From positions 124,001 to 188,000 of the forward strand of contig NZ_UCNW01000009.1 of NCBI RefSeq assembly GCF_900474185.1: 64,000 bases of DNA, in the 5' to 3' direction. The position numbers and the translations under genes were made by a program. Every line of letters begins with the position of its first letter. Positions within the stretch are counted from its first letter, which is position 1. Under the pieces are notes generated by a model. The model was not told the DNA's origin. It saw only the letters and a program-made list of their open reading frames with translations, and ran no database searches. Origin of the DNA: Synechococcus sp. UW69 (GTDB lineage Bacteria > Cyanobacteriota > Cyanobacteriia > PCC-6307 > Cyanobiaceae). Below are positions 31 through 6,592 of the stretch, piece after piece.

Positions 31-924
31 ATGGATCGCAACGCACTGATCGAGATTCTTCAGCGCGAAGGCAACCTGAAGCATTCCTTCAGCACCGATG
101 AGATCAAAAGCCTCGCTGAACATGTCTCGATCGAGGTGATCCAAGCAGAAACCATCTTGATGAAGAAGGGCGAACCCTCAGACAGCATGGTGTTCATCCT
201 GGATGGTCTTGTTCAAATCCTTGACGGCGAACGACAGCTCTCCATTGAACAAACAGGATCCATTATTGGAGAGAGCCTCTTTTCAGAGGAAGCAACGCGC
301 GTTGCAGACGTTCAAACCATTGAGCCAACAACCGTTGGTCGATTTTCAATACACGACTTCGAAAACTTCCTGGGCCAAAACCAGCCGCTGGCCCTGAAGT
401 ACCGAGAATACTTTCAAGCCATCAGGCGCGCACGAGCCGAGCAATTTGCTGCCGAAAACTATAGCGACAAGCGGAAATATTTAGCCCTGATTGCTCACAA
501 CAACATGAAAGAAAGTTTGATGGAATTTTGCGGAATACACACCAACAAATTAGAAACATTTTCACTGATTGCAACCGGCACGACAGGCAGCATTCTCTAT
601 AAGAAAACTGGGCTTTGCCTTAGCAAGAAAGTGGCATCAGGCCCCCTCGGTGGCGATCAGGCCGTCGGAACTCTGATTTCGACCCAGAACATCTGTGGCG
701 TGATCTTTTTCAGGGACCCACTCTCCTCACATCCCCACCATGCTGATATCGAGGCGCTGGGCCGCCTCTGCGACGTTTATCAGATCCCATTTGCCACCAA
801 TCCGCAGAGCGGCGAAGCCATTCTCGACTATCTCCTCTCAGGGAAAGCAGAACGCGAATTGATTCCCAACCAAGTACTTCAGGCCTATATTCAGGGTCAG
901 AAAAAAGTTGTTGAAGCGGGTTAA
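31..924 (+). CDS. Cyclic-nucleotide-binding domain fused to methylglyoxal synthase
   Basis: 297 aa in two parts. Residues about 15-130 form a cNMP-binding beta barrel, with a phosphate-cassette-like GES start (G80, E81) and R90. Residues about 148-270 align without gaps to methylglyoxal synthase (MgsA), which converts dihydroxyacetone phosphate to methylglyoxal plus phosphate. The E. coli residues H19, K23, D71, D91, H98 and D101 correspond to H156, K160, D209, D229, H236 and D239, and the ATGTTG and GPLGGDQ motifs are present, so the enzyme looks active. MgsA is normally a stand-alone protein of about 150 aa, so this is a fusion. It converges on an adenylate cyclase gene, which suggests cAMP control of the enzyme (inference). 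It is cytosolic, with no signal peptide. The ATG start lies only 30 bases from the window edge, so upstream context is unseen. Confidence 0.9.
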   Translation: MDRNALIEILQREGNLKHSFSTDEIKSLAEHVSIEVIQAETILMKKGEPSDSMVFILDGLVQILDGERQLSIEQTGSIIGESLFSEEATRVADVQTIEPTTVGRFSIHDFENFLGQNQPLALKYREYFQAIRRARAEQFAAENYSDKRKYLALIAHNNMKESLMEFCGIHTNKLETFSLIATGTTGSILYKKTGLCLSKKVASGPLGGDQAVGTLISTQNICGVIFFRDPLSSHPHHADIEALGRLCDVYQIPFATNPQSGEAILDYLLSGKAERELIPNQVLQAYIQGQKKVVEAG

Positions 925-949: not shown

Positions 950-2716
950 AGAATCCGAATCAGACCGAAGCGCAAGCAAGCCAAAGACAGGGATGGGTTC
1001 AGGCCAACCTTTCACAGCATGGGACCCCAGATCCGCCACCACAACATCCTCCGCGATGAGATTCCTGACGTCTCCACTCATCAGGATTGGATAGTCAGGG
1101 AAGTGCCGTGTAAGGGATTCAAGCCGGCTGGCCAGATTCACCGGAGCTCCAATCACGGTGTACTCCAACCGGTGGCTCGACCCAAGATTGCCGGCGATCA
1201 CTTCACCGCAGTGAATACCAATTCCCTGGCGTAGCGGTGCCAAGCCCTCCTGATCGAGTTCTCGATTCAGAACCTCAAGGTTGGCCTGCATCCCCAGAGC
1301 AGCCCGCACAGCCGCCAGAGCCTCGGCACGATCGCCCCGATGCACGGGCACCCCAAATTCCGCCATCAGGGCATCGCCAATGAATTTGTCCAACAACCCC
1401 TGCTCCCGCAGCACCGGAGCTGCAATTGCCTCGAAATAGCGATTCAACAAGCCAAACAGGGCCTCCGCATCCATCACGTTGCTGCGGGCTGTGAATCCCA
1501 CCAAGTCGGTGAACAACACCACGCAGCGCTCGCGACGACCGCCAAGACGCGTCCAGCTCTCCTGCCCCGACCGCAGCATGTCGCGCATGAGATTCGGTGA
1601 CACCCTGCGCGACAGCACCGAGTGCAGAAATCTCCGTTGAGAGCTTTCCCGCTGGAATTGGTCTCCCGCCCGGAGACTTCCCCCGATCAACGGCATCAGC
1701 ATCAAAGCTGCGCCAGGCAACCAAAGGCCGTTGAACCAAGCCAAAACAACGCCCCCGGTTACCAGAGCCTCCAGAAGAGCGGTTGTGATCGCTGTGCCAA
1801 GGGCGGTCGATGGAGCTGCGATACGCCATTGACACAACAGCAACCAGAGGGCCATCAATGCCACCAAATGGGAGACATCAGGCGCGCGAAAGCCTCGTCC
1901 GCTTTGGAAGCCTGCAATGGCCGATAGCAAAACCTCAGAGCCGCTCTGCTGACCAAAAGGGGTCTCCAGCTGATCACCCAGCGAAGGGGCAGTGGAACCG
2001 ATGATGACGACCTTGTTCCGCCAGGTGTCTTGCGGAAGCGTGCCCACGGCCCAGGCGGGAATCACCGGTATGTGTCCGCTGGGTCCGAGGAAATCAATGC
2101 CGTTATCACCTTGTGATGAAGCAACCCCTGCAGCGAGAGGCGCTAAAGGGCGAGGGTGGGGCTCAGAAAAGTCATTGAGCATCCCCTTCAGGCTCTGCCG
2201 TCCCGGAACAGCCTGCACAACACCGAAGGCGTTCATCGAAAACGCCGACAGTCCCACGGGATAGCTCGTGTACCAGGGACGTCTCAGTTGAACCTGCTCG
2301 TGACCCTCCAGCTGCTGTCGCACCAGAGAGGCGCTCAACACCACCCGGTCTTGCCATGGTTGCAACGCGTGTTGGAAGGCAAGGTCGTCGGTTGGACCAA
2401 AACCGCTGGGCCCAACATGAACGATGTTGAAGACGACACGACGGGCACCCTGACGGAGAACCGCACGGGCCAGGTCTGCCTGCAGCGCACGCGGCCAGGG
2501 CCAGGAGCCGAAATCAGACAGCTGTGGATCCAGTGACGCCTCATCGATGCCCAACAGCACCACGTCATCGGGGGGCTCAATCGGGCCACGCCATTGAAAA
2601 AGGAGCTGCCGGCCCGTGGCGTCCAAACGCGACAGCAACGGGAGCATGGCCAGGGGCAACAGCAGCGATGCCCGCCACAGACACGGAACAAGATGCCGGC
2701 GGATCAAACGTCTCAA
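944..2716 (-). CDS. CHASE2-domain adenylate cyclase (class III)
   Basis: 590 aa membrane-bound nucleotide cyclase making cAMP from ATP. It has an N-terminal membrane helix (about 10-30), an extracytoplasmic CHASE2 sensor domain (about 45-275, with the typical VLLGIDE and VVIIGSTAP segments), two or three further helices (about 280-345), and a C-terminal class III catalytic domain from about 395. Metal ligands are D404 and D448, purine-specifying residues K444 and T520, and transition-state residues N527 and R531. The K and T pair and the spacing match cyanobacterial CyaC-type adenylate rather than guanylate cyclases. It overlaps the upstream FecR gene by four bases (ATGA), so the two are one transcription unit and probably one sensing device. 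Confidence 0.92.
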   Translation of the reverse strand: MRRLIRRHLVPCLWRASLLLPLAMLPLLSRLDATGRQLLFQWRGPIEPPDDVVLLGIDEASLDPQLSDFGSWPWPRALQADLARAVLRQGARRVVFNIVHVGPSGFGPTDDLAFQHALQPWQDRVVLSASLVRQQLEGHEQVQLRRPWYTSYPVGLSAFSMNAFGVVQAVPGRQSLKGMLNDFSEPHPRPLAPLAAGVASSQGDNGIDFLGPSGHIPVIPAWAVGTLPQDTWRNKVVIIGSTAPSLGDQLETPFGQQSGSEVLLSAIAGFQSGRGFRAPDVSHLVALMALWLLLCQWRIAAPSTALGTAITTALLEALVTGGVVLAWFNGLWLPGAALMLMPLIGGSLRAGDQFQRESSQRRFLHSVLSRRVSPNLMRDMLRSGQESWTRLGGRRERCVVLFTDLVGFTARSNVMDAEALFGLLNRYFEAIAAPVLREQGLLDKFIGDALMAEFGVPVHRGDRAEALAAVRAALGMQANLEVLNRELDQEGLAPLRQGIGIHCGEVIAGNLGSSHRLEYTVIGAPVNLASRLESLTRHFPDYPILMSGDVRNLIAEDVVVADLGSHAVKGWPEPIPVFGLLALRSDSDSG

Positions 2717-3525
2717 GGAGCTGGCGCCGAAACCCCCAGTTCCCGCTCGATGTCCGGCAAGGTCTCCAAGGGGGTTGAGAAACCGTTGATGAGAAGGCTC
2801 TTCTGAAGGCGACGTTCAGCATCCTGGGCAGACAGCGGCTGGGGGGGCTCCCAGTCGTACTCCTGCTGATCCTGTTGACGCGAACGAGGACTGCTGTAGC
2901 CATCTCGCCCAGGAGTCGGCGGCGTCACGATGCCGCCGCCCAACTCACCTAAAGCGGATTCCAAACCATCCAAGCGACCGCTGACCTCAACCATCTGACG
3001 TTTGAGATCCAAAAGCAGCTGCTGACCACTGTTCAAGGTGAAGCGTTGGCCATTGCTCGTCTCCACCCGAACCCTGCCTTCCCAGCTGAACACCTTGAAC
3101 TGCTTGTCGGTGAACTCCAAAAAAACGGTGGTGCCCTGAATCGAAGCCGTGGCCAACCGCGTTTTGATCGAGAAGGGACTGCGATGCGGAGTCCCTGGCT
3201 TAATCCAGCCGATGATGGAACCCTTCAACAGTTCGACGTCGGACGCACCCAAGCGCAACAGAGCATCACCCCCCATGCGGAACTGACGCCCGTTGCCCAA
3301 CATGACCTGCATGCGACCTGGCTTTGTGGTGCGTAGCAACGCATTTGTCTTCAACGACTGACCCGAGCGTGCAGTGATCTCAGTAGCGCCGGGCAGCTTG
3401 ACGAAGGCAGGCCCCGCCGGGACCTCAACAACACGAGGCTGAGCGGCACGGCTGGGCAGGGCCCAGAGGGCACTCCCGAGCAGCAGCAGCGCACCTGCCT
3501 GAACGAAAACTGCCTGTTTCAACAT
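2713..3525 (-). CDS. FecR-domain secreted protein, partner of the CHASE2 cyclase
   Basis: 270 aa. An N-terminal signal peptide or anchor (about 1-28, hydrophobic LLLLGSALWAL ending near SRAA) is followed by a FecR domain (about 50-150). This contains stretches typical of FecR beta-strand proteins, such as TTVFLEF and VFSWEGRVRVE. The C-terminal third is proline- and charge-rich. It is the first gene of a two-gene operon with the cyclase. FecR/CHASE2 pairing recurs in cyanobacteria, where FecR is thought to act on the periplasmic side; direct regulation of the cyclase is inference. The ATG at 3525 precedes the signal peptide directly. Confidence 0.85.
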   Translation of the reverse strand: MLKQAVFVQAGALLLLGSALWALPSRAAQPRVVEVPAGPAFVKLPGATEITARSGQSLKTNALLRTTKPGRMQVMLGNGRQFRMGGDALLRLGASDVELLKGSIIGWIKPGTPHRSPFSIKTRLATASIQGTTVFLEFTDKQFKVFSWEGRVRVETSNGQRFTLNSGQQLLLDLKRQMVEVSGRLDGLESALGELGGGIVTPPTPGRDGYSSPRSRQQDQQEYDWEPPQPLSAQDAERRLQKSLLINGFSTPLETLPDIERELGVSAPAP

Positions 3526-3662: not shown

Positions 3663-4982
3663 ATGGCATACGAGAACGTTCTGAAAAATCCTGATAACTT
3701 CAATTTCGAAATTCAACAGCTTGGGGAAGCAACTTATGCCAACCCCTGCAGCCAAGAGATTTTTGTTGACGACTCAGAGAAAATTATTTTTTCCAGTCAG
3801 ATCAAGAACCTGAATCATCAACTCGAAACATGCAAACAATTGCCGGCATTTGAGAAGGCCGGAGCCCGGGAAAGAATCTTTCACAATCTAGATACAACCC
3901 GCGCAGCAATTATCACCTGCGGTGGGCTATGTCCGGGGCTGAACAATGTGATCAAGGGACTGGTCAACGTATTGGAACAGGACTATGGCGTCAAAGAGAT
4001 TATTGGCATTCGCTATGGCTACAAAGGCCTGACGCAACAATCAAATCAAGAACCGATCCAGCTGAATTCATCTGTTGTTGAACAGATTCACAAACAGGGC
4101 GGGACCATTCTTGGATCGTCGAGAGGCAATCAGGATCCAGAAATCATGGTGGACGAGCTCCAGCGTAGAAAAATCAATCTCCTGTTCTGCATCGGCGGCG
4201 ATGGCACATTGAAGGGGGCTCAAGCAATCGCGGAAGCAGCCAATAAACGTCAAGCCAACATCAGCGTTGTCGGCGTGCCGAAAACCATCGACAACGATCT
4301 CGGTTTTGTTGAAAAAACCTTCGGCTTCGAAACCTCTGTCCAGGTAGCGTCGGAAATCATCACATCCGCCCACCACGAAGCAGAAGGGGCCGAAAACGGT
4401 ATTGGAATCGTGAAACTGATGGGTCGAGACTCTGGCTTTATTAGCGCTACAGCATCACTGGCCAATTCCATTGTGGATGTCTGCCTTATTCCCGAGACCC
4501 CGTTTCAAATCAGTGGGCCCGAAGGCATCTGTGCAGCAATTCAACGCAGACTTCAACAGAACAACCATGCTGTGATTGTTGTCGCAGAAGGGGCCGGGCA
4601 AGACCTTTTCAACAACAGCGAAAGCAGAGTCGACGCTTCCGGGAACATCCTCAAGGATGATATTGGAGAACTTCTTAAGAAGGAGATAACGGCATACTTC
4701 AAACAAAATAATCTCGCAATCAGCATCAAGTATCTGGATCCCAGCTATCACATCCGAAGTGTTTCAGCAAACGCAGCAGATGCAGTGTTTTGCTACCTAC
4801 TTGCGGAACATGCCGTGCATGCGGGTATGAGCGGAAAAACCAATCTTTTGATCGGCTACTGGAACAATTTCTTCACCCATGTCCCCATTCATCTGGCCAC
4901 AAAAGAACGGCGGATGGTTGACCTTGACAGCGCCCTATGGCGTGGCGTCATTAGCGCAACCCAGCAGGACAAACATCCATAA
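3663..4982 (+). CDS. 6-phosphofructokinase (ATP-type by signature)
   Basis: 439 aa, in the long plant/protist-like PfkA group rather than the 320 aa E. coli form. It phosphorylates fructose 6-phosphate. Seen: phosphate-binding CGGLCPGLN (86-94), GGDGT (178-182) and PKTIDND (206-212), and a GRDSGF segment. Glycine after GGD favours ATP as donor, since pyrophosphate enzymes usually have GGDD. The lysine in PKTIDND is shared with plant and trypanosomatid ATP enzymes. It is transcribed divergently from fecR-cyclase across a 137-base gap. Many marine picocyanobacteria are described as lacking phosphofructokinase, so its presence beside a methylglyoxal synthase and a cyclase is notable. Confidence 0.9.
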   Translation: MAYENVLKNPDNFNFEIQQLGEATYANPCSQEIFVDDSEKIIFSSQIKNLNHQLETCKQLPAFEKAGARERIFHNLDTTRAAIITCGGLCPGLNNVIKGLVNVLEQDYGVKEIIGIRYGYKGLTQQSNQEPIQLNSSVVEQIHKQGGTILGSSRGNQDPEIMVDELQRRKINLLFCIGGDGTLKGAQAIAEAANKRQANISVVGVPKTIDNDLGFVEKTFGFETSVQVASEIITSAHHEAEGAENGIGIVKLMGRDSGFISATASLANSIVDVCLIPETPFQISGPEGICAAIQRRLQQNNHAVIVVAEGAGQDLFNNSESRVDASGNILKDDIGELLKKEITAYFKQNNLAISIKYLDPSYHIRSVSANAADAVFCYLLAEHAVHAGMSGKTNLLIGYWNNFFTHVPIHLATKERRMVDLDSALWRGVISATQQDKHP

Positions 4983-5113: not shown

Positions 5114-6592
5114 ATGGTCTTGGCATTGCAATGGTTACTCACAGTTGTCGGCCTGTTCGCCGGATTGGTCGCCAAGCGCATCTGCCAACGGTTCAGCATG
5201 CCACCGTTCCCTTGGCGCACTCCTTGGATTGCTCTACTGGCGCACACCACCGAACAGACGATCGAAAGCTTCCGCATTCCGATCTCAGCGGGGCTTGATC
5301 TCAGCCTCATCACAGGCATCCTCGCTTCGATTGCCATAAGCCGGTGCCTGGTTTGGGTCGCTCTCGAAATCCTGCCAACACTCCGGATTTTGCCGTCCTG
5401 TCCAAAAATTCTGCGCGATCTGATTTTCATTGTCGGCAGTTTGTTCCTTATCGCTCTAAATCTGAAGGAGCAAGCCAGCATCGACCTGGTGGGCCTGGTG
5501 ACAACCTCAGCAGTTCTCACGGCTGTTGTTGGTTTAGCCGCCCAGGATCCACTGAAAGACCTCATCGGTGGCTTGAGCCTTCAACTCGAACAAGTGATCC
5601 GAGAAGGCGATTGGGTTGAAATTGATGGATACATTGGCCAAGTGCAATCAATCAGCTGGAGAGATACAGAAATCAACAGCCTTTATGGGTCAAGGCTGAT
5701 CTTTCCACATACGAATTCCAACTCCAGCACAATCCAAAATTTCACAAGCAATGGAGCCCATGCCAACAAGCTGATTATTGGACTGGATTACAGCATGCCG
5801 CCAGATATAGCCAAGAAAATAATGCAGAAGATCTCTGATAATCACTCGCTGGTTCTTCGATCACCAGCCAACATCATTCGAATCCGCTCATTCGAAGAGA
5901 GCTGCATCAACTACGAATGGATCAATTGGCACAAAGACTTCGGCCAAAGCCGTGCGCTCCGTGGTGACCTTCAAGAACAGCTTTGGTATGCGCTACAACG
6001 TGAAGGCTTCAGCTTCCCATTCAGCGTTCGTGATGTACGAATTACACAAAATGAGCAGCAACCAAAACCACTATCTTCCAGCAAAGACAACTTACTCAAA
6101 AGCATTCACAAACTCCTGAGAGACAACCAACTCTTTTCCATCCTTTCCGACAATCAGATTCAAAAGATGATTGAAATGAGCTCATTCTGCTCATACGGAC
6201 CCGGAGAAATTATCGTGAAAGAAAACGAAGACGGAGACTCACTCTTTATGCTAATCAATGGCAATATTTCTATCCAGAAACCATCAATTCCTCAGAACAA
6301 TGTCGAAATAGCTCAACTGCAATGTGGAGACATCTTTGGGGAAATGACTGTTTTTACCGGAACCACTCGCAGTGCAACAATTCAAAGCATCAGCAAAGTC
6401 GACCTGCTCGAGGTGAGTCGACAAGCCATCGCCGAACTCATCGATGAAGAGCCAGGCCTGATTGAGCGCTTTGGCCAATTGATCAGCGATCGGCAAGCTC
6501 AACTGGCCCAACTCGCCATTCAATCGGTCCCAGCCAACAGTCGAGACGTGGTGGGGCGCATGAAAGAACTCTTCCAAAGCCTGCTCTCGTAG
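5114..6592 (+). CDS. MscS-type mechanosensitive channel with C-terminal cNMP-binding domain
   Basis: 492 aa. It has about four hydrophobic segments (1-20, 35-50, 62-90, 100-120), then the pore-lining helix and MscS beta domain (about 125-215, with glycine/alanine-rich VVGLAAQDPLKDLIGG), a mixed C-terminal vestibule, and a cNMP-binding domain (about 340-470). The phosphate-binding cassette is canonical: GDIFGEM with E410 and RSAT with R419, better conserved than in the methylglyoxal synthase fusion. Such cyclic-nucleotide-gated MscS-like (bCNG) channels are a known family. It lies 131 bases after pfk and shares the locus with an adenylate cyclase, so cAMP is the likely ligand (inference). The ATG at 5114 is the first start in frame that includes the first helix. 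Confidence 0.9.
   Translation: MVLALQWLLTVVGLFAGLVAKRICQRFSMPPFPWRTPWIALLAHTTEQTIESFRIPISAGLDLSLITGILASIAISRCLVWVALEILPTLRILPSCPKILRDLIFIVGSLFLIALNLKEQASIDLVGLVTTSAVLTAVVGLAAQDPLKDLIGGLSLQLEQVIREGDWVEIDGYIGQVQSISWRDTEINSLYGSRLIFPHTNSNSSTIQNFTSNGAHANKLIIGLDYSMPPDIAKKIMQKISDNHSLVLRSPANIIRIRSFEESCINYEWINWHKDFGQSRALRGDLQEQLWYALQREGFSFPFSVRDVRITQNEQQPKPLSSSKDNLLKSIHKLLRDNQLFSILSDNQIQKMIEMSSFCSYGPGEIIVKENEDGDSLFMLINGNISIQKPSIPQNNVEIAQLQCGDIFGEMTVFTGTTRSATIQSISKVDLLEVSRQAIAELIDEEPGLIERFGQLISDRQAQLAQLAIQSVPANSRDVVGRMKELFQSLLS

Follow-up and report, generated by a model that had tools for sequence, protein, structure and literature searches.

A cyclic-nucleotide-binding domain fused to methylglyoxal synthase in marine Synechococcus and distant bacteria: a candidate cAMP-controlled enzyme

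Synthesis of the toxic compound methylglyoxal is known to be controlled by substrate and by phosphate; no paper on allosteric phosphate control in the hexamers was found in the open-licence literature. The solved stand-alone methylglyoxal synthases (MGS or MgsA; E. coli 1b93, Thermus 1wo8/2xw6, B. subtilis 6f2c) are chains of 126–178 residues lacking a sensor domain. The protein described here shares their fold and active-site residues in its C-terminal domain, but ∼145 residues, including a cNMP-binding domain, precede it. Joining of MGS to another domain is also seen in a cyanobacterial diacylglycerol-kinase-like fusion (∼420–490 residues); there, however, MGS is N-terminal and the partner is DAGK_cat/YegS_C (L061; L and G numbers are our labels for loci and genomes), whereas here MGS is C-terminal. 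PycTIR, a Pycsar effector, has an N-terminal cyclic-nucleotide domain related to that of the fusion, but its effector half is a TIR domain instead of MGS; its partner cyclase makes cUMP or cCMP. In layout, the fusion resembles MtKat/Rv0998 and MSMEG_5458, which are described as an N-terminal cyclic-nucleotide domain followed by a cAMP-activated enzyme (PMC5861322), the catalytic domain in that case being a GNAT acetyltransferase and not MGS. With regard to gene neighborhood, the Syn_GI122 cAMP module of marine Synechococcus, in which CRP and a cAMP-regulated MscS channel are reported to accompany adenylate cyclases, is much like the locus analyzed here, and the main text of that paper makes no mention of methylglyoxal (PMC7522525). 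The surrounding cAMP gene island is already published. Both domains of the fusion belong to known families, and no description of the two joined was found in the searchable open-licence papers, in line with the preliminary description, in which no enzyme of this architecture was known.

The stretch of DNA analyzed (the window; 64,000 nucleotides, C9:124001–188000) belongs to a genome of 2.37 Mb in 15 contigs (100% complete), the closest named relatives of which are marine Synechococcus. The features relevant to this analysis are collected in Table 1.

Table 1. Coordinates of the fusion gene, its parts and its neighbors in the window.
Feature	Position	Strand	Basis or remark
cNMP-binding domain/methylglyoxal synthase (MGS) fusion, 297 aa	31..924	+	ORF, Pfam, NCBIfam, 29 relatives
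cNMP-binding domain, residues 36–117	136..381	+	Pfam PF00027, fold match to cyclic-nucleotide-bound structures
Phosphate-binding cassette, residues 77–94 SIIGESLFSEEATRVADV, including E81 and R90	259..312	+	
Long predicted helix, residues 118–142 (C-helix position), linking both domains	382..456	+	AlphaFold2 model, DSSP
Methylglyoxal synthase domain, residues 147–279	469..867	+	NF003559, fold match to 1wo8
CHASE2 + class III nucleotide cyclase, 590 aa	944..2716	-	Pfam, whole-genome search, catalytic motifs
FecR-domain protein	2713..3525	-	ORFs, Pfam, neighborhood; own stop overlaps start of cyclase
6-Phosphofructokinase, PRK06830 type	3663..4982	+	NF005301, 611.6 bits; rare in genus
MscS-type channel with C-terminal cNMP-binding domain, pocket FGEMTVFTGTTRSATI	5114..6592	+	Pfam, sequence

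The fusion gene opens with an ATG codon. Both halves of its product exceeded the respective Pfam cut-offs, PF00027 with 52.6 bits (E 4.4e-14; cut-off 27.5) and MGS, at residues 174–256, with 45.2 bits (E 1.1e-11; cut-off 24.1), and the NCBIfam model for methylglyoxal synthase, NF003559, reached 142.7 bits (cut-off 84). The same two Pfam families were matched at E ≤ 0.001 in each of the 29 relatives scanned (29/29; the cNMP match of L021 lies under the Pfam cut-off), which bears out the architecture proposed in the preliminary description. The six MGS residues named there (H156, K160, D209, D229, H236, and D239) are indeed present in the fusion at these positions, as are E81 and R90 of the cNMP cassette. 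Glu and Arg of such a cassette are its phosphate-binding residues. The constant offset to E. coli MgsA that had been claimed did not hold: with what we take to be the sequence and numbering of the E. coli enzyme, the offset is 137 for the first two MGS residues and 138 for the remaining four, because the fusion contains one additional residue ahead of its SGPLGGDQ motif, which is kept. This one-residue gap was also visible when the fusion was compared with the Thermus MGS enzymes.

AlphaFold2, run on the 29-row alignment, produced a model with a mean pLDDT of 82.8 and a pTM of 0.48, the latter meaning that the relative placement of the two domains is not reliable. Model residues 148–271 match the solved MGS 1wo8 (Z 19.9, rmsd 1.9, 123 aligned). 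The cNMP half matches 3gyd (Z 18.2, rmsd 2.8, 147 aligned), HCN2 with cAMP (3bpz; Z 17.9), and GlxR with cAMP (Z 17.3). In the model, helix 118–142 is followed within eight residues by strand 150–155 and then by H156 and K160. The fusion is the sole MGS detected in the genome, and it is very unlikely that its C-terminal half has a different activity or none. The score with the second MGS model of NCBIfam, TIGR00160, is slightly below the cut-off (141.3 versus 146.9), and the loss of MGS active-site motifs from L078 and L079, of a related cyanobacterial group, means that decay occurs. The window protein, however, retains the six residues and SGPLGGDQ, appears to be under strong purifying selection, and shares ∼40–49% identity with many of the solved MGS enzymes that match it best.

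When the window protein was scanned against 84,980 genomes, 21 loci were obtained, from Synechococcus, Trichodesmium, Verrucomicrobiota, Latescibacterota, Gemmatimonadota, Myxococcota/Deltaproteobacteria, one proteobacterium, and two contigs filed under Bacteroidota; further relatives were added by whole-genome searches. Within the genus, 13 of 34 genomes contain the fusion, four of them split by frameshifts (G016, G017, G024, and G025), and three more have cNMP-only matches at E ≤ 0.001. Among 400 sampled genomes of the Synechococcus family, 22 match at E ≤ 1e-15 (18 reading through both domains, 4 broken), and no stand-alone MGS was found in this sample; the MGS of other cyanobacteria is mainly N-terminal in a ∼440-residue protein. 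The frameshifts at L089, L090, L006, and L007 break the gene at differing places in four genomes, and of the four broken copies, L007 alone shows seven consecutive A in the overlap, which falls between the two domains. That the fusion is common in Verrucomicrobia was rejected: when the phylum of G413 (a Verrucomicrobiae genome, the source of L009) was sampled with 288 genomes, it occurred in G413 alone (E ≤ 1e-30), and the 12 other matches comprised the MGS half only. An origin from phages or plasmids was rejected as well, as coverage of 80% of the query in one place was not reached in any of 50,697 phage or 72,556 plasmid records, the matches listed being to the MGS half; the family alignment, when run against viral contigs, yielded 34 loci, every one with the MGS half only. 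Chance joining or an assembly artefact was rejected on account of 29 distinct relatives with mostly fixed spacing. The joining of the two domains is a recurrent fusion, not chance.

A tree of 88 MGS domains (127 columns) placed 28 of the 29 fusion members, together with two proteins with a dead MGS domain, on one side of a branch with 98/97 support, with L059 outside this group on a long branch. This topology is compatible with one main fusion event and perhaps another. The 18 MGS domains of the diacylglycerol-kinase-like/YegS type (L061:1492-2814 and the others of L060–L077; domains scanned in L061) formed one separate clade. Very similar copies, with end branches of 0.025–0.04, are present on contigs filed under Latescibacterota, Verrucomicrobiota, and Gemmatimonadota (L008, L009, and L013), which reflects either recent transfer or wrongly binned contigs. 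The contig L005:1-12852, assigned to Crocinitomicaceae, shares ndk, speA, a FAD oxidoreductase gene, and gatB with the Synechococcus-family locus L087 and is probably a wrongly binned cyanobacterial contig. Further cNMP-MGS relatives belong to a group of other cyanobacteria (L078:1465-2256, L079:1465-2256, and L094:9006-9794); the MGS active-site motifs are gone in the first two, and proteins of this type are likely, judging from their sequence, to be non-catalytic receptors. L021:5716-6855 encodes 379 residues with an EF-hand-like N-terminus (below Pfam cut-offs), a weak cNMP domain with the pocket Glu/Arg replaced, and MGS.

Conservation was assessed in an alignment of the 29 distinct members, from which broken copies, same-contig duplicates, and the two dead-MGS proteins were left out. 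The six MGS residues are intact in 28 members (exception, L020), E81 and H156 are 75 residues apart in 25, and E81 and R90 are both present in 20. The nine pocket exceptions are L021, L059 (its Arg sits one position further on, which may be a misalignment), and L055, L002, L003, L040, L057, L041, and L043. The last seven are half of the 14 intact main-family members of Synechococcus type; each has a substitution at the pocket Glu, the pocket Arg, or both, with all six MGS residues unchanged, so canonical gating is not universal, and at least part of the family may function without canonical cyclic-nucleotide binding. Nearly all members outside Synechococcus keep both pocket residues. For three pairs (window–L033, window–L034, and L033–L034), dN/dS was 0.11–0.19 over codons 1–142 and 0.03–0.05 over codons 148–297, ratios that are rough because the dS values are high (in the pair with L001, dS was saturated). 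Purifying selection appears to act on both halves, with the cNMP half changing ∼3–6 times faster than the MGS half. The altered pockets and the faster change of the N-terminal half would suit a domain that is an inherited scaffold for assembly or localization and has lost ligand sensing, leaving an ordinary MGS under substrate and phosphate control. The fixed inter-domain spacing and the retention of both pocket residues in the window protein and 19 others argue against this explanation, which is considered unlikely.

The neighboring cyclase is the only PF00211 match in the whole genome; it lies 20 bp from the fusion and is convergent with it. By motif, it carries D404 and D448, K444 and T520, and N527 and R531, which we take to be the metal aspartates, the purine selectors (adenylate-type), and the transition-state residues, respectively. 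The pair of cyclase and FecR protein lies directly downstream of the fusion, in convergent orientation, in the window, at L001, and in G023 (L082), and it is also found ∼0.7 kb from a distant fusion member in G297 (L091). At L002, L003, L006, L007, L081, L086, and L087, a relative of the cyclase is located ∼2.6–5.5 kb from the fusion. Among the flanking genes are ndk, gatB, alaS, and that for arginine decarboxylase, with insertions that encode CRP-like proteins and a small cNMP-only protein; the locus is the kind of cAMP island published as Syn_GI122 (PMC7522525). The island at L001 also contains a ShlB/FhaC-type two-partner secretion transporter (L001:968-2665), and five consecutive ORFs of 226 aa, forming one cluster at an even spacing of 870 bases, were observed near the fusion in G255 (L087:2424-6584). 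The PRK06830-type phosphofructokinase was considered as a constant partner of the fusion and rejected: it is nearby in the window and at L001, L082, L005, and L013, yet only 4 of 34 genus genomes have matches (one in pieces), three of which carry the fusion. A second fusion group (L083–L085 and L088) has a different location and an altered pocket, with no relative of the window cyclase nearby; L083–L085 lie near an Lhr-type helicase and a chromate transporter. Nor was a relative of the window cyclase seen near the fusion at the 14 loci outside the Synechococcus group (L008–L021), several of which have short flanks.

Across genomes, the fusion and a PF00211 cyclase tend to occur together. The cyclase is present in 12 of 13 fusion-bearing genus genomes versus 7 of the 21 that lack the fusion (Fisher p 0.0011, kinship ignored), and, when only genus genomes at least 90% complete are counted, in 7 of 8 versus 2 of 11 (p 0.0055, kinship ignored). 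The sole fusion-bearing genus genome without the cyclase is G024, and its fusion is frameshifted. Of 23 additional genomes that carry the fusion or a dead-MGS relative, 22 likewise have a cyclase; the exception is G222, where the reading frame is intact and the pocket Arg is replaced by His. An intact fusion frame without a detected cyclase, as in G222, would suit an N-terminal domain that has ceased to sense; the co-occurrence of fusion and cyclase within the genus speaks against such a loss. That loss of the pocket is due to loss of the cyclase was not supported, as the cyclase is present in the genomes of six of the seven pocket-altered Synechococcus-type members. Loci with a nearby cyclase numbered five of seven among the pocket-intact and three of seven among the pocket-altered Synechococcus-type ones, which is no clear difference.

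As for the ligand, the cNMP half of the model matches cAMP-, cGMP-, and cUMP-bound domains at similar scores, cNMP-binding folds being alike whatever the ligand, and the domain resembles the cUMP-bound one of PycTIR. Gating of MGS by cGMP, a pyrimidine cyclic nucleotide, or another small molecule would be compatible with these likenesses; it is nevertheless rather improbable, given that K444 and T520 of the only cyclase detected in the genome are, presumably, adenylate-type. Against it also stands the published island, which is described as a cAMP module (PMC7522525). A related alternative is defense in the manner of Pycsar, in which infection would cause the neighboring cyclase to make a cyclic nucleotide that switches on MGS, so that methylglyoxal poisons the cell. 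PADLOC reported PycTIR on the N-terminal domain (1.7e-10) and PycC on the cyclase (1.7e-26), but these matches span the shared domains only. The patchy spread in a variable genomic island and the four broken copies in the genus would fit a defense system. By contrast, the cyclase combines a CHASE2 sensor with what we take to be adenylate-type residues, the same kind of island houses CRP and MscS cAMP effectors, pocket-altered copies retain an intact MGS, and outside Synechococcus no adjacent cyclase was seen (several flanks being short). Such a defense role is regarded as most improbable.

The explanation favored here is that the fusion is an MGS directly controlled by a cyclic nucleotide, most likely cAMP from the neighboring cyclase, and that this control is probably activating; we rate it as moderately probable. 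The membrane cyclase, with its CHASE2 sensor and adenylate-type cyclase domain, would produce cAMP, which the N-terminal domain would take up at E81/R90. Bound cAMP would shift the long helix 118–142, and this shift could alter catalysis because strand 150–155 runs directly on to H156 and K160 of the active site. Activation is the favored direction because the similarly laid-out mycobacterial acetyltransferase is described as cAMP-activated (PMC5861322). DHAP would then be drained to methylglyoxal and phosphate freed as triose phosphates accumulate, with glyoxalase clearing the product; the genome encodes two glyoxalase-family proteins, one of them ∼13 kb upstream of the fusion. Ligand, catalytic activity, direction of control, and physiological role of the fusion are all inferred.

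A second-messenger gate on MGS had been put forward in the preliminary description, and the results go only part of the way with it. The conserved fusion, the fixed spacing, the pocket kept in 20 of 29 members, the adjacent sole PF00211 cyclase, and the fold fit such a gate, but the altered pockets in 7 of 14 intact Synechococcus-type members of the main family speak against canonical gating across the whole family. Only within the Synechococcus group was the cyclase seen close to the fusion. As the two genes are convergent and do not share an operon, and as the cyclase lies in a hotspot of cAMP genes, its adjacency to the fusion may not be specific. Nine cNMP-binding matches were found in the genome. 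By eye, the Gly-Glu...Arg pocket is kept in the fusion, the MscS channel, and a protein at C9:119839, and the CRP/NtcA-type look-alikes L024 and L030 are without it. As the proteins with an intact-looking pocket do not look CRP-like, cAMP may act in this organism mainly via the fusion, the channel, and one other protein.

In Synechocystis, cAMP is reported to rise under high carbon (PMC13249358), and deletion of the MGS gene (sll0036) to result in faster mixotrophic growth (PMC11897720). A role of the fusion in draining DHAP and releasing phosphate when carbon is plentiful is our guess. The chances are about even that cAMP-gated MGS and the cyclase with its membrane sensor make up a circuit of two proteins, one that influences glycolysis with no transcriptional step and has spread by gene transfer among marine bacteria. 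The EF-hand-like N-terminus of L021 and the dead MGS domains of L078 and L079 would make MGS a hub for fused regulatory inputs. The cAMP targets named for the published island are a transcription factor and a channel (PMC7522525). If cAMP gating is true, the fusion would be a direct enzymatic target of cAMP in marine Synechococcus, and the second-messenger gate would add a new layer of control to the DHAP branch point and to phosphate recycling in abundant cyanobacteria of the ocean.
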